A program made the translations under genes and the position numbers. This document shows positions 22,937 through 28,265 of a DNA stretch of 64,000 bases, piece by piece. The DNA comes from Streptomycetaceae bacterium (GTDB taxonomy: Bacteria > Actinomycetota > Actinomycetes > Nanopelagicales > Nanopelagicaceae). The DNA is taken from the NCBI GenBank assembly GCA_027483765.1, contig JAIXTW010000006.1:1-64000 (forward strand). Reading direction: 5' to 3'. The notes beneath the pieces were generated by a model, which saw only the letters and a program-made list of their open reading frames with translations, did no database searches and was not told the origin of the DNA. Positions within the stretch are counted from its first letter, which is position 1, and each line of letters begins with the position of its first letter.

Positions 22937-25741
22937 TTACTTGCGCGATTGCGCTGCAATTGCAGCAGCGATAGCTGATTTAAGTCGATCTTGTGCACGA
23001 CCATAAGCTGAGAAGTCGCCCTTAGCAAGTGCGGCTTGTCCATCTGCAATTGCTTGCTTAGCACTTTGTAGCGCACTTGCAAGATCTGCAGAACTGTTGC
23101 TCGTTGTGGGATTTGCTGTCGATGATGATGTTCCCGAGTTACCACCGAATACTTGATCCAGCGCTCCCTTAAGTGAACTATCAAAACCAATCACATCTCC
23201 AAATGACACCAATACTTTCTGGAGTAGTGGATATGCAGCCGAGTTAGCTGTCGCCAATACATAGACCGGTTGCACGTAGAGCAAACCATTTCCAACTGGA
23301 AGTGTCAGCAAGTTACCGAGGACTACATCAGATCCACCTTGTCGCAAGAGTGAAAGTGCGTTTGCAACTTCCGGCTTTGCTTCAAAGTTTGATGCAACCT
23401 GAGATGGTCCAGCAATCGCCGTACTGCGTGGCAATTGAAGCACAGTGATTTTTCCATAATCAGGTCCAGCCGTTGAATTCACAGCTGCGAAAGCTGAAAG
23501 GTTTTCACGTCCGCCTCGTGGCACAAATGGGGTGGTTAGCGAGTATGCCGGAGTCTTTGTACCTGGCATCTGCACAGTCATGTAATACGGAGGTTGGGCA
23601 CCAGCATTTGCTCCGAAGGTAGAAGGATCTCGCGGTACACGCCAGAAGTCTTGTCCGCCGTAGAAGGCAGCTGCGTTATTGACGTGATACGAACTAAGAA
23701 TGTCGCGTTGAACACGGAACATATCTTCTGGGTAGCGAACGTGCTCCAGCAGCCCCTTAGACATGGTGCTCTTGGCCTTTACCGTATTTGGAAACGCCTT
23801 CATCCAAGTCTTAAGGACTGGGTCTTTTTCATCCCATTGATAAAGCGTGACTGTTCCATCGTATGCGTCAACAGTTGCTTTGACGGAGTTGCGGATGTAA
23901 TTCACTTTTCTATTTGTCTGAGCTGTGACAGATGTTGAATTAATTGTCACAGCATCAGCAGTTGCTGTGGAAAGTGATGTGGTTTGAGAATATGGGTATC
24001 CAGCACTTGTTGTGTAGCCGTCGATAATCCATAGGACTTTGCCATCGACAATCGATGGGTATGGATCTCCATCAAGGGTGAGCCATGGCGCAACTTTTGC
24101 TACACGTTCACGAGGTGAGCGGTTGTAGAGAATCTTGGAATCAGAGTTAATCAGATTGGAGAGCAAAATACGCTGCTCTTGATATTTAATCGCAAAGAGC
24201 AACTTATTAATGGTGCTGCCGACGTTTACTCCGCCAGTTCCAGTGTAGGTGTAATTCTTTTGACCGTTTTCAGATGCATCATCTGGATAGTCGAATTCGA
24301 CTGGAGAATCAGTCTTCTTTCCACCAATAATTGAATAGTCAGGAACATTCTCACCGAAGTAGATTCTTGGTTGGAACTCACCGAGTCCCTTTGTTGGTGG
24401 CAAGTCTCCTACTGCAAAGCTTGGCTTTCCATCGGCGTCGACGGTATTTGCATAAGCTGCAACGTAGCCAAAGCCGTGGGTGTAGACCAAGTGATCGTTA
24501 ATCCAGTTACGACTTGGGTTACCGTCGATATTCAATTCACGAACACCAACTACGGTGTCGCGAGATACGCCATTAATTGTGTAGCGATCGACATCTAGTG
24601 ACTGTGGGAAGGTGTAGTAAGGCTTAATCTGCTGAAGCTGGCGGAAGGTGGCAGAGATTACGTTGGGATCCATCAAGCGAATGTTGGCGATTGTTGCTGC
24701 ATCCTTGGCTAGTTGGCCAGCGTTGGTAGAGAGCGTCGCGTCATAATCACGGATCTCTACGCCATTGAGGTCATATGCCGCACGAGTAGCCGCGATATTG
24801 CGCTCAATATATGGGGCTTCCTTCGATGATTCAGAAGGCTTGACCTGAAATTGCTGGATAGCTGCTGGATAAATTCCAGCAATCAGCACGGAGGAAATTA
24901 CAAGTAGCACTGATCCGGCGGCCGGCAATAGCCAGGAACGACGGACAATATTTGCAAAGAAGAGGAGTGAGCAGACCACAGCGATAGCGGCCAAGATTGC
25001 TTTGGCGGGCAGCAAGGCATTTACATCTGCATATTTAAGTCCCGTGATGAGTGTGCTCTCTTTAAGTGAGAGTGCGAAGCGATCAAACCAATAAGCAACC
25101 GCTTTCAGCAGAACCATAAGTCCAAGCAGAATTGATATCTGAATTCGCGCTGCAACAGTTGTGCGATCACTTTGCACAGCGGTACGAATTCCACCGTACA
25201 TGTAATGGATAAATGCGCTAGCTAGAGCAGCCAGAATCAGAGTAGAAATTCCCCAACCAATGAGGGCTTGGTAAATAGGAAGCTTAAATGCGAAGAAGGA
25301 GATGTCGAGATTAAATTGTGCATCCTTGACGCCGAACTCCGTTGAATTTCTAAAGAGAAGCCATTCATTCCAGAACGACACTCCAGATGAACCAGCAAAG
25401 TAGGTAAGCAGCAGCGCGACTCCGGCAAATACCAAGAGGCGAATTGGTTCAATCTGTGCCCGCAGCCGCTCGAGGCCATTGACTTCAATACTGGTTGGGA
25501 CGTAGAGCGGACGGGTTCGGTAGGCGATGAAAATATTGAGCGAAATAATTAGCGATGTAATGAGGCCCGTTACTAAGAAGAGTTGAATCTTTGTGGAAAG
25601 GACCGTGGTCCAGACTGATGTGAAATCGACCGAGTTAAACCAGAGCCAGTCGATATAGAAATTGCTGAAGTAGAGAATTGCAGCTGCCACCGCAACTAAA
25701 ATTCCGGCAGTAATGACGAGCGGGCTACGATTTCTATTCAT
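22937..25741 (-). CDS. UPF0182 family membrane protein
   Basis: The 934-residue protein has about seven hydrophobic segments in the first 330 residues, then a long extracytoplasmic region with the family segments LMDPNVISATFRQLQQ, RNWINDHLVYTHGFG and NKLLFAIKYQEQRILL. It ends in a Ser/Asn/Ala-rich linker and a helical, charged tail (about 860-934). This matches UPF0182, whose biochemical role is unknown. The mycobacterial counterpart is Rv3193c. It overlaps the upstream Lon-type protease gene by 4 bp, suggesting a shared transcript and possibly a shared envelope function. Confidence 0.93.
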   Translation of the reverse strand: MNRNRSPLVITAGILVAVAAAILYFSNFYIDWLWFNSVDFTSVWTTVLSTKIQLFLVTGLITSLIISLNIFIAYRTRPLYVPTSIEVNGLERLRAQIEPIRLLVFAGVALLLTYFAGSSGVSFWNEWLLFRNSTEFGVKDAQFNLDISFFAFKLPIYQALIGWGISTLILAALASAFIHYMYGGIRTAVQSDRTTVAARIQISILLGLMVLLKAVAYWFDRFALSLKESTLITGLKYADVNALLPAKAILAAIAVVCSLLFFANIVRRSWLLPAAGSVLLVISSVLIAGIYPAAIQQFQVKPSESSKEAPYIERNIAATRAAYDLNGVEIRDYDATLSTNAGQLAKDAATIANIRLMDPNVISATFRQLQQIKPYYTFPQSLDVDRYTINGVSRDTVVGVRELNIDGNPSRNWINDHLVYTHGFGYVAAYANTVDADGKPSFAVGDLPPTKGLGEFQPRIYFGENVPDYSIIGGKKTDSPVEFDYPDDASENGQKNYTYTGTGGVNVGSTINKLLFAIKYQEQRILLSNLINSDSKILYNRSPRERVAKVAPWLTLDGDPYPSIVDGKVLWIIDGYTTSAGYPYSQTTSLSTATADAVTINSTSVTAQTNRKVNYIRNSVKATVDAYDGTVTLYQWDEKDPVLKTWMKAFPNTVKAKSTMSKGLLEHVRYPEDMFRVQRDILSSYHVNNAAAFYGGQDFWRVPRDPSTFGANAGAQPPYYMTVQMPGTKTPAYSLTTPFVPRGGRENLSAFAAVNSTAGPDYGKITVLQLPRSTAIAGPSQVASNFEAKPEVANALSLLRQGGSDVVLGNLLTLPVGNGLLYVQPVYVLATANSAAYPLLQKVLVSFGDVIGFDSSLKGALDQVFGGNSGTSSSTANPTTSNSSADLASALQSAKQAIADGQAALAKGDFSAYGRAQDRLKSAIAAAIAAQSRK

Positions 25742-26580
25742 GCCGATAGATTAGTACACCCCTGGACACCCCGATAATTAGAATTTCCTGAGTTTTTCAG
25801 CGCCAGATAGGCCTCTTCCAGCGTTGAGACGGCAATCACTTTCAATCCCGTTACCTCCGCTGGGAGTTCATCGCAGTTTTCTCGAGCGATGAAAAGTAGC
25901 TGCACTCCAGCGAAACGGGCCGCCACAATTTTCTCTTGGACACCACCAATTGGTCCCACTTTGCCAGATTTAGAAATTGTTCCGGTTGCTGCAATCTTTC
26001 TTCCATTGAGTAGGTTCTCGGGCGACAAAAGTTCAGTGAGTCCTAACGCAAAGATCAACCCACCACTTGGTCCACCAGTATTTTTTAGCGAAACTTTTAG
26101 CGAGTTGTCGGTAACTCCACGGAGATCAACATCTGGATATTTCTTGGCAAAGAGTTGCTTTGTTGAAGCTAGCGCAGAACTCTGCGACTGTTTCATCTCT
26201 TTCGCACCCAATGCCAACTCTTCATCGTCATTAGTCTGCTTTGGGTAAATAACTTTTCGGGGATTAACGACGCAGGTCGGCTCGGCCCAACATCGAAGAA
26301 CTTGGAATCCAAGGACCGCGGTTTCCGGGTTGGTGACCCAGATAGATAAGAGGAACATCTGACCATCAACCGGATATGTTTGTGAAGATGTTGTTTTAAG
26401 CATCTTTGGAAAGAGTGGAGTTCCTTCACCTGGATTAATCAAGACGAAGTTAACCGGAATCAGAAGCGGTGCCATGAGAAAGAGTGACAATGCGATTCGG
26501 GAGAATCTAGATGTGCGGCTAAAGCCAACTCTATTTCGTGAGCCGAGCGTTCGGAGAGACGAAATTCGAGGACGATGCAT
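25738..26580 (-). CDS. Membrane-anchored Lon-type serine protease lacking a PDZ domain
   Basis: The 280-residue protein has an N-terminal membrane anchor (about 29-47) and a C-terminal Lon-type S16 domain with the catalytic Ser in GGPSGGL and the catalytic Lys in IGGVQEKIVAAR. This is the YlbL/Rv3194c family, normally about 340 residues with a PDZ domain between anchor and protease. Here the stretch after SQSSAL passes almost directly to the protease core, so the PDZ domain appears to be missing. It is encoded with UPF0182 (4-bp overlap). Confidence 0.88.
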   Translation of the reverse strand: MHRPRISSLRTLGSRNRVGFSRTSRFSRIALSLFLMAPLLIPVNFVLINPGEGTPLFPKMLKTTSSQTYPVDGQMFLLSIWVTNPETAVLGFQVLRCWAEPTCVVNPRKVIYPKQTNDDEELALGAKEMKQSQSSALASTKQLFAKKYPDVDLRGVTDNSLKVSLKNTGGPSGGLIFALGLTELLSPENLLNGRKIAATGTISKSGKVGPIGGVQEKIVAARFAGVQLLFIARENCDELPAEVTGLKVIAVSTLEEAYLALKNSGNSNYRGVQGCTNLSA

Positions 26581-26590
26581 AAATTACGTG

Positions 26591-26854
26591 CTAATTGTCT
26601 CGTTGTTCTGGTGACTGGTTCTCTGGATCTTGGGTATCGGATACTGGAGTCTCGTTGCGAAAGGATTCTTGAAAGCGCTGGAAATTTCCAACCGATCTCG
26701 ATGTTTCAGATTCAAATCTTCCTTTGAATTTTGTAATCCAGATTACGTAGCCAATGCCCCCAATGAGTGCACCGACAGGAACTACCCACCAGATAAGCGC
26801 GGCAAAAGTGCTGCTTCCCGCTGCTATTGCAGAGCTGCCACCAAAGAGAACCAT
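26591..26854 (-). CDS. Small membrane protein, hypothetical
   Basis: The 87-residue product has one hydrophobic hairpin (about 5-43; IWWVVPVGALIGGIGYVIW) and a polar, Glu/Gln/Asn-rich C-terminal half. Only this portion of a longer open frame is likely coding, because the upstream part lies antisense to the DUF2342 gene. The start at 26854 has no strong ribosome-binding site. It follows the DUF2342 start divergently and precedes the Lon-type protease gene by 10 bp, so it probably shares its transcript. I do not recognise the family. Confidence 0.55.
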   Translation of the reverse strand: MVLFGGSSAIAAGSSTFAALIWWVVPVGALIGGIGYVIWITKFKGRFESETSRSVGNFQRFQESFRNETPVSDTQDPENQSPEQRDN

Positions 26855-26945: not shown

Positions 26946-28265
26946 TTGCACATGTCACCTTTTGGATTTACTCCGAATGATGGAGATGAAGAAGGTAACA
27001 AGCCAGAAGATTTCTCAGCGATGATGCGCCAGATGCAAGAACAAATCCAAAAACAGTTTGAGCAGATGGGAATAAACCCAGCAGGTTTCGTCAATCCATT
27101 TGCCGCATTTACTGGTGGACGCACTGATGCTCTTCCTAAGAACGTTGTCAGAGATACCGCAAAGAAGTTTGTACAGCTCCAAGGTTCAGAACCGATCGGC
27201 ACAAAAGATGTCAGTGTGGTCGCCAGCGCTTTTGAAATTACCGATCTCTGGCTCAACGAAGCAACCGTCTTTCCGGCAACACAATCATCCGCAGCCCCAC
27301 GCGCAGTAAGTCGGCTCGACTGGGTCGATCTCACACTCGATGGTTGGCACCAGACTATGGAGCCCCTTGCCACCGGCCTCTCCAGCGCAATTTCTGGGCT
27401 GCTCGATGAAGCATCCGGAAGTTCAGAAGAGATGGCTAACTCCATGGGCGCAATCACTGGCCTACTGCGCACATTTATTGGCTCCATGATTGCAACCCAA
27501 TTAGGTCAAGCCGTTGGCTCAATCTCGACCACGGCAACGGGTGTACACGACGCCGGTCTGCCACTGCTTACGCCAGCTCACCCAGTGTTGATTCCGGAGA
27601 ACATTGAAAAGTGGAGCACGGATCTTGAGATTCCTAAGAGCGAGGTCTACATATTTCATGCGCTTCGAGAGGCGGCAGTTGCCCGCCTATTTGAACATAA
27701 CCCATGGATAGTTGCCTACATCCGTAGCGCCATCGTTGAGTATGGCCGCGGTATCCATATTGATATGGATGCAATTCAACGCCAAGCCGAAGAAGCTATG
27801 CAGGGTTTTGATCCTTTCCAGATGAATCCCGAAGCGGGCGAAAACTCTTTCTCCATTGCACTTAATAAAGGAATCTTCACACCGGAGGAAACACCGGCTC
27901 AACGCGCTGCACTTTCTAAACTTGAAACCGTGCTTGCACTGGTCGATGGCTGGGCCGATGAGGTCACTACCTGTGCCGCTGCAGATCGATTGCCTTCACT
28001 TGCACAACTTCGCGAAATTTATCGTCGCCAGCGAGCAACGAATGCGCCATCACAACAACTCTTCGCAACACTTCTTGGATTGCAAGTAACGCCACGTCTT
28101 GCTCGAGAGGCGAGCGCCTTCTGGCAGAAGCTTCGTGAGGTCAAAGATGTCGCAGCTCGCGATCAGATTTGGAGTGGAATTTTGCCAAGTGCCGAAGAGC
28201 TCCTTGATCCTGAAAAATTTATGAAATCTGCGCAGATTCCAGATGACCTCAGTGGGTTGCTCTAA
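26946..28265 (+). CDS. DUF2342 (Zincin_2) family protein
   Basis: The 439-residue protein matches the actinobacterial DUF2342 family, often annotated as a zinc-dependent metalloprotease: an N-terminal Met/Gln-rich region, LGQAVGSISTTATGVHDAGLP, then HALREAAVARLFEHNPWI and EYGRGI. No canonical HExxH motif is visible. The nearest candidate is HALREAAV, so zinc-dependent catalysis cannot be assumed. The mycobacterial counterpart is Rv3195 by position. The start may be 26946 or the ATG at 26952 (MSPFGF), with a GAAAGAGGAG segment just upstream. Confidence 0.85.
   Translation: MHMSPFGFTPNDGDEEGNKPEDFSAMMRQMQEQIQKQFEQMGINPAGFVNPFAAFTGGRTDALPKNVVRDTAKKFVQLQGSEPIGTKDVSVVASAFEITDLWLNEATVFPATQSSAAPRAVSRLDWVDLTLDGWHQTMEPLATGLSSAISGLLDEASGSSEEMANSMGAITGLLRTFIGSMIATQLGQAVGSISTTATGVHDAGLPLLTPAHPVLIPENIEKWSTDLEIPKSEVYIFHALREAAVARLFEHNPWIVAYIRSAIVEYGRGIHIDMDAIQRQAEEAMQGFDPFQMNPEAGENSFSIALNKGIFTPEETPAQRAALSKLETVLALVDGWADEVTTCAAADRLPSLAQLREIYRRQRATNAPSQQLFATLLGLQVTPRLAREASAFWQKLREVKDVAARDQIWSGILPSAEELLDPEKFMKSAQIPDDLSGLL

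Follow-up and report, generated by a model that had tools for sequence, protein, structure and literature searches.

A YlbL-type membrane protease without its PDZ domain in the Nanopelagicaceae and the likely parallel loss of that domain

The DNA considered here, referred to as the window, is a stretch of 64,000 nucleotides from a freshwater actinobacterium of the family Nanopelagicaceae (GenBank assembly GCA_027483765.1, contig JAIXTW010000006.1, positions 1 to 64,000), and the gene of interest lies on its reverse strand at 25738..26580. The gene encodes a membrane-anchored protease of peptidase family S16 in which the PDZ domain that is typical of its YlbL-type relatives is missing. Taken together, the evidence makes it quite probable that this is a protease with an intact catalytic dyad, descended from a PDZ-bearing ancestor in a family where the domain was lost in parallel, and acting on putative membrane substrates. 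The structure and the history of the PDZ loss are the well-supported parts of this reading.

The anchor, the Lon domain and the site of the PDZ

The main parts of the gene and its product are as follows.

25738..26580, reverse strand: PDZ-less YlbL-type S16 protease gene, 280 amino acids
26443..26523, reverse strand: region of the membrane anchor, residues 20-46, with a helix modelled at 20-40 (from sequence and model)
26140..26442, reverse strand: residues 47-147, predicted N-terminal half of the Lon fold; its last element is helix alpha-1, bearing an M-x-x-S-Q motif
26107..26139, reverse strand: short linker, approximately residues 148-158, at the PDZ site of relatives
25786..26085, reverse strand: residues 166-265, C-terminal half of the Lon fold
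26065..26067, reverse strand: codon of the catalytic Ser172 (GGPSGG)
25930..25932, reverse strand: codon of the catalytic Lys217 (GGVQEK)

The N-terminus of the protein is rich in arginine, with eight Arg and neither Asp nor Glu over residues 1-28, and is followed by one hydrophobic helix, an arrangement for which the positive-inside rule would predict an N-in/C-out topology. A Pfam scan returns Lon_C at residues 169-256 (1.2e-11), no PDZ family at E<=10 and no AAA+ family, and hence no sign of the ATPase by which LonA and LonB are recognised. The Lon_C match accounts for no more than the C-terminal half of the catalytic domain, and the other half is recognised, as residues 47-165, in an AlphaFold2 model built on a 13-protein alignment (mean predicted local distance difference test score, pLDDT, 78.8; predicted template modelling score 0.75). 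When compared by VIA-align, model residues 48-263 match the human Lon proteolytic domain (2x36_F; Z 15.6, root mean square deviation 2.8, 154 of 179 aligned) and residues 48-264 match E. coli Lon (3wu3_F; Z 15.1, 152 aligned). The residues from the anchor up to the catalytic serine are therefore assigned to the N-terminal half of that fold, and residues 47-265 are modelled as one continuous Lon proteolytic domain. A sequence-only reading of the window had described an anchored S16 protein with Ser in GGPSGG, Lys in QEK and no PDZ, all of which is borne out by the open reading frame, the Pfam scan and the model; it had also placed only a short segment between anchor and core, and this segment in fact runs to about 120 residues and forms half of the S16 fold.

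Where, then, does the PDZ of the relatives sit? In a model of one PDZ-bearing relative (L042, pLDDT 88.3) the Lon fold extends over residues 31-333 (149 aligned to 6x27_G, Z 14.7) and residues 136-222 align to the PDZ of an RseP homologue (3wkm_A; Z 14.4, 85 aligned). Since the Lon match lies on both sides of the PDZ match, the PDZ is embedded within the Lon fold, and the model places it between helix alpha-1 and the strand that precedes the catalytic serine. The earlier picture of an anchor, a deleted spacer and a catalytic core thus has to give way to one in which relatives carry the PDZ as an insertion within the Lon fold itself. Among the chains listed by the structure searches are those of Lon, ComM, BrxL and RadA and, for L042, PDZ chains.

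The same anatomy can be followed in the distance from the alpha-1 methionine to the catalytic serine, which falls into two classes with nothing between: 35-52 residues for the short proteins (83) and 117-139 for the long ones (32). The short set includes the longer piece of an interrupted frame (L006, genome G002), and five further YlbL-type proteins read by eye (L018, L022, L023, L024, L074) are also short forms with the dyad present. In the window protein the spacing is 43; a natural ATP-dependent LonA (L046) has 44 by a count on its sequence. Loss of the PDZ therefore restores a Lon-like spacing. All eight long relatives scanned as a control (L042, L083, L095, L101, P0003, L182-L184) match PDZ families at E <=3e-5, seven of them above the curated cut-off and L095 below it, and none of the ten short proteins scanned does. 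The path of the new linker is unsure in detail where pLDDT is low, at about residues 161-170, and as modelled this segment is far too small to house a PDZ. A hidden or degenerate PDZ, for which structure prediction and profile searching had been proposed as checks, is ruled out by the Pfam scan, the model, the fold alignment and the spacing. A sequencing artefact or one-off deletion is likewise ruled out by the presence, in Planktophila genomes, of genes that are 75-77% identical and share the architecture.

Some proteins of a second PDZ-less genus, g27, have a longer linker (L057, L062, L070, L074), which reaches 52 residues in L057, L062 and L070. It contains a stretch (YDFPIKVSISL in L057) that resembles the strand found just after the PDZ of sister genera, perhaps as a footprint of excision. 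In L057 the Lon_C match begins at residue 121 (profile 67-184), in accord with the nested anatomy.

The dyad itself is strictly maintained. All 120 YlbL-type proteins examined, whether PDZ-less or PDZ-bearing, have both Ser and Lys (the Lys was re-read by eye in L019, L030, L038, L065 and L098, where both residues are present), and Ser172 and Lys217 are invariant in 13 of 13 and 19 of 19 aligned sequences. The ratio of nonsynonymous to synonymous substitution (dN/dS, Nei-Gojobori) is 0.13-0.15 when the window gene is paired with each of three named relatives, at a dS of 1.16-1.31 that is near saturation, and 0.12-0.13 between closer pairs, values that indicate purifying selection on the protease gene. 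Also invariant, in 13 of 13 aligned sequences, are N235, C236 and C275, and the two cysteines would fit an extracytoplasmic disulfide. A separate pair of cysteines, CWxxxxxC at about residues 97 and 104, is shared by the window protein with its closest g1 relatives (L035, L049, L005, L010) and was not seen in other alignment rows among those listed.

In comparison with known systems, the window protein shares with YlbL of B. subtilis, SepM of S. mutans and the Rv3194c type an N-terminal transmembrane segment, an S16 Ser-Lys dyad and the absence of AAA+; the Rv3194c-type label comes from the sequence-only reading and is presumably apt. It differs from the YlbL/SepM family in having no PDZ and thus an uninterrupted Lon fold. 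The fold, the dyad and the helix-to-serine spacing are those of the LonA/LonB proteolytic domain, from which the window protein is set apart by its membrane anchor and its lack of an AAA+ ATPase. Its best NCBIfam match is the SepM family model NF041438 (4.2e-21; 75.3 bits against a cut-off of 200); two PDZ-bearing actinobacterial forms also fall below this cut-off (125.4 and 138.1 bits), which therefore does not separate the two forms. The gene occupies the same genomic place beside UPF0182 as YlbL-type genes of other actinobacteria, and so, while not of the full PDZ-Lon architecture, it is by descent and gene order an actinobacterial ylbL-type gene.

Distribution and history of the PDZ-less form

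The family sample comprised 201 genomes in 17 genera, of which 158 genomes gave a match (172 of 201 for the same family in an order-level search); proteins were read from one or two genomes for each PDZ-bearing genus and for g26, g30 and g39, and from many for g1 and g27. Short, PDZ-less genes are found in five of the 17 genera, namely g1 (Planktophila), g26, g27, g30 and g39. In nine (g25, g29, g32, g33, g34, g36, g37, g38 and g40) the domain is retained, as seen from two matches around the PDZ. The expectation that YlbL-type relatives normally carry a PDZ is accordingly upheld, with full-length forms in sister genera and in other actinobacterial families. In the remaining three, g31, g28 and g35, ylbL is missing and both of its neighbours are kept. 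In the window these neighbours are the following.

22937..25741, reverse strand: UPF0182 membrane protein gene
26591..26854, reverse strand: small protein gene, 87 amino acids with one hydrophobic stretch, 10 bp upstream of the protease gene

The profile search found ylbL in none of 16 g31 genomes; weak matches there (G093, G247, G135) and one in g35 (G070) were identified as YifB and RadA and rejected as ylbL. UPF0182 was found in all seven g31 genomes searched for it, each without ylbL, and in all seven stretches the small protein gene is followed directly by UPF0182. The same order without the protease is seen in the single g28 assembly (85% complete, 7% contaminated) and in the single g35 assembly (89% complete). 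Seven sampled g1 genomes also gave no ylbL match (G003, G008, G020, G024, G027, G248, G269), and apparent absences were met in g30 too. In G269 the contig ends 68 bp upstream of UPF0182, in G024 a ylbL fragment and UPF0182 lie at contig ends, in G003 UPF0182 lies at a contig end, and in G248, as in G092, UPF0182 was not found either; these five genomes were left out of the loss count. Outside the inspection of the locus fell G008, G020 and G027 (41-82% complete), G154 and G163, plus 23 and 9 genomes not listed individually in the family-level and order-level results. In one Planktophila genome (G002, L006) the ylbL frame is split by a TAA, which marks either a pseudogene or an assembly error.

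Outside the family, a class-level search of 393 genomes gave contiguous PDZ-less matches, among the matches listed, in all 43 genomes sampled from family f19, which comprises one genus of 5.8-11 Mb, with 70-74% GC in the four stretches measured, and is probably Streptomyces. All 11 f19 proteins read are PDZ-less with a spacing of 35, and in each of G054, G588 and G410 a PDZ gene was read alongside the PDZ-less one; matches spanning the site in G323, G607 and G425 were rejected as PDZ-less forms, their proteins being PDZ forms. The f19 paralogue (L100) resembles the window protein in its hydrophobic N-terminus, continuous S16 domain, lack of PDZ and length of about 266 residues. It differs in being a second gene beside the PDZ form in the genomes read, and L100 has no UPF0182 nearby. 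A phylum-level search of 198 genomes added PDZ-less forms in at least two genomes of other classes, G765 (f70; 265 residues, above the Lon_C cut-off) and G769 (f92; about 259 residues, just below it at 21.0 against 21.1), both divergent and with the SepM family model as their best match, below its cut-off. The PDZ deletion proposed by the sequence-only reading is thus real and yet not private to the window.

The history of the loss was approached with a tree of rpoB and rpoC from 20 genomes (two without rpoC), which does not include g26, g35, g36 or the genome of the window. In this tree g1 and g27 join g28 with a starred support of 99/98, and g30, g39 and g31 form a separate group at a starred 100/99. 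The PDZ-bearing g25 and g37 join the latter group at a starred 100/99, followed by g34, g32 and g40 at the same value, and a single clade of all PDZ-less and g31 rows is rejected (approximately unbiased, AU, test, p-AU 5.4e-62). The UPF0182 tree is similar in shape, with g30/g39/g31 beside g25/g37 at a starred 95/94. At least two PDZ losses within the family are therefore likely on these sequence data, and two parallel losses are the simplest reading because of the organism tree together with the conserved synteny. The PDZ was probably lost once in the g1/g27 lineage and again in the g30/g39 lineage. The whole gene would then have gone in g28 and g31, whose positions in the tree, alongside these two lineages, suggest that gene loss came after PDZ loss, and also in the unplaced g35. 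The placement of g26, on a long branch, is unsure.

Several points weigh against two losses, and the main alternative is a transfer of the PDZ-less gene between lineages: a single loss, then horizontal transfer into the g30/g39 lineage or the reverse. In the ylbL tree, calculated from 261 columns with the PDZ left out, a single branch, unstarred at 66/88, has all 20 PDZ-less rows of the family on the same side, and the f19 paralogue groups apart from them. AU tests on ylbL reject neither grouping (p 0.278 without g26, and 0.348 and 0.388 for the organism-tree grouping), and UPF0182 alone opposes one clade weakly and without rejection (p 0.066). The rpoB of the window genome lies at a contig end, and g1 is represented in the rpoB and rpoC tree by four other genomes. 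Against transfer stands the UPF0182 tree, for as UPF0182 follows the organism grouping, any transfer must have replaced ylbL alone and left the neighbours untouched. On balance transfer is unlikely, and parallel loss remains the reading that we prefer.

Mode of action, substrates and alternatives

In the favoured model the protease derives from an actinobacterial PDZ-bearing YlbL-type gene whose nested PDZ was lost, leaving a continuous Lon domain, and the enzyme is membrane-anchored and probably extracytoplasmic. Short membrane-tethered substrates would be met through the transmembrane helix and its proximal surface, and cleaved by the Ser172-Lys217 dyad without a PDZ step of tail recognition or gating. 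That loss of the PDZ changes the choice of substrate, as the sequence-only reading proposed, is plausible.

The best candidate substrate is a LexA-linked, YneA-like protein with a transmembrane segment and a LysM domain, by analogy with B. subtilis, in which YneA, a membrane-bound division inhibitor induced by the SOS response, is removed by YlbL and CtpA (PMC6051672). We would give this assignment about one chance in three. A protein of this type lies beside lexA in 12 of 13 family stretches around LexA matches, the window's own genome included (the exception is G014, L200), and is not found in the one f19 stretch. The copy in the own genome matches LysM at 2.5e-9 and the YneA model at 7.3e-12 (45.1 bits, below the cut-off of 60). 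Two observations count against the proposal: the YneA-like protein is kept in three of three g31 genomes without the protease, and B. subtilis YlbL was inactive in vitro on YneA, lysozyme and casein (PMC6051672). Two reasons for the PDZ loss were considered and set aside. LexA was found in 22 of 24 genomes of any ylbL state (missing in G065 of g30 and G072 of g37), and its presence does not track the PDZ state. Redundancy with CtpA finds no support either, since the distribution of S41 does not track the PDZ state: it is absent in five of five g1, two of two g27 and two of two genomes of the PDZ-bearing g25, and present in one g30 and one g39. These two patterns likewise speak against a strict tie between the protease and the YneA-like protein.

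Other readings of the protein can be set against this model. The protease could work mainly on or with its neighbours, UPF0182 or the small upstream protein, and the gene order is certainly close: the genes share a strand, the UPF0182 ATG overlaps the protease TGA by 4 nt (25738-25741) and the gap on the other side is 10 bp. UPF0182 is present on the same strand in 102 of 106 ylbL-type stretches fetched, some of which overlap (in 14 of the 102 the gap is 404-2883 bp), and the 87-residue protein, which has no Pfam match, neighbours ylbL or UPF0182 in all 20 ylbL stretches examined from the family (weakly in L103), in seven of g31 and in one each of g28 and g35. Both neighbours nevertheless persist without ylbL in those g31, g28 and g35 stretches, and four ylbL-type stretches have no UPF0182 (L038, L044, L045 and the f19 paralogue L100), which makes a neighbour-directed role doubtful. 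The coupling to UPF0182 claimed earlier therefore holds as gene order and finds no support as an obligate functional tie, UPF0182 having survived in the seven g31 genomes.

It might also be asked whether the PDZ-less protein is a relic of little function on its way out, for which one could cite the absence of ylbL from g31 and from the single g28 and g35 loci, the TAA in G002 and the seven g1 genomes without a match. Yet the dyad is kept in every protein of both forms, dN/dS is about 0.12-0.15, and of the seven g1 misses the four inspected comprise three contig-end cases and one genome without UPF0182, so that this explanation appears quite unlikely. Highly improbable is a supply of the PDZ function in trans by a separate PDZ protein: the window's own genome does contain three PDZ_2 matches, but these are two trypsin-PDZ proteases of the HtrA type and one M50-PDZ protease of the RseP type, and the PF13180 search, the only one made, found no stand-alone PDZ protein.

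What might the dispensability of the domain mean? In B. subtilis YlbL the role of the PDZ was left open between a receptor and a DegS-like inhibitor, and recognition through the transmembrane helix was proposed (PMC6051672). A tentative generalisation, somewhat short of probable, is that the PDZ is a dispensable control module in the Lon fold, which streamlined freshwater actinobacteria removed at least twice in parallel to give constitutively open proteases with anchor-based recognition, followed by loss of the whole gene in adjoining branches. If this were true, the PDZ of YlbL-type proteases would be a brake or gate, DegS-like, rather than an essential substrate receptor. The PDZ-less family members constitute a natural test of the role of the module, and the existence of such dyad-intact forms in several lineages makes the question of receptor versus inhibitor directly testable by domain swaps, for which the nested anatomy shows the boundaries of a clean PDZ deletion. 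PMC11197336 gives the layout of SepM as transmembrane segment 10-26, PDZ 131-195 and S16 233-314; an S16 domain given in this way, as the last 80-100 residues, misses half of the catalytic domain. No mention of a PDZ nested in the Lon fold was found among the listings and passages of the open literature searched.

Several further observations concern the wider surroundings. The nearest named relatives of the window gene, at 75-76% identity, are from Ca. Planktophila versatilis and another Planktophila record, and the window is accordingly assigned to Ca. Planktophila. The window genome is 96% complete and its three Lon_C matches are the protease gene, a YifB-type Mg-chelatase ATPase and RadA; this search found no ATP-dependent Lon. 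A PDZ-less S16 protein of 286 residues with a different N-terminal half is encoded on a Brevibacillus plasmid (L220, 1066-1926), with insertion sequence (IS) transposase genes nearby. In the window, a Zincin_2 (PF10103) metallopeptidase gene at 26946-28265 on the forward strand diverges from the protease cluster, and a zinc-dependent metalloprotease also adjoins the PDZ form on a Tsukamurella plasmid.

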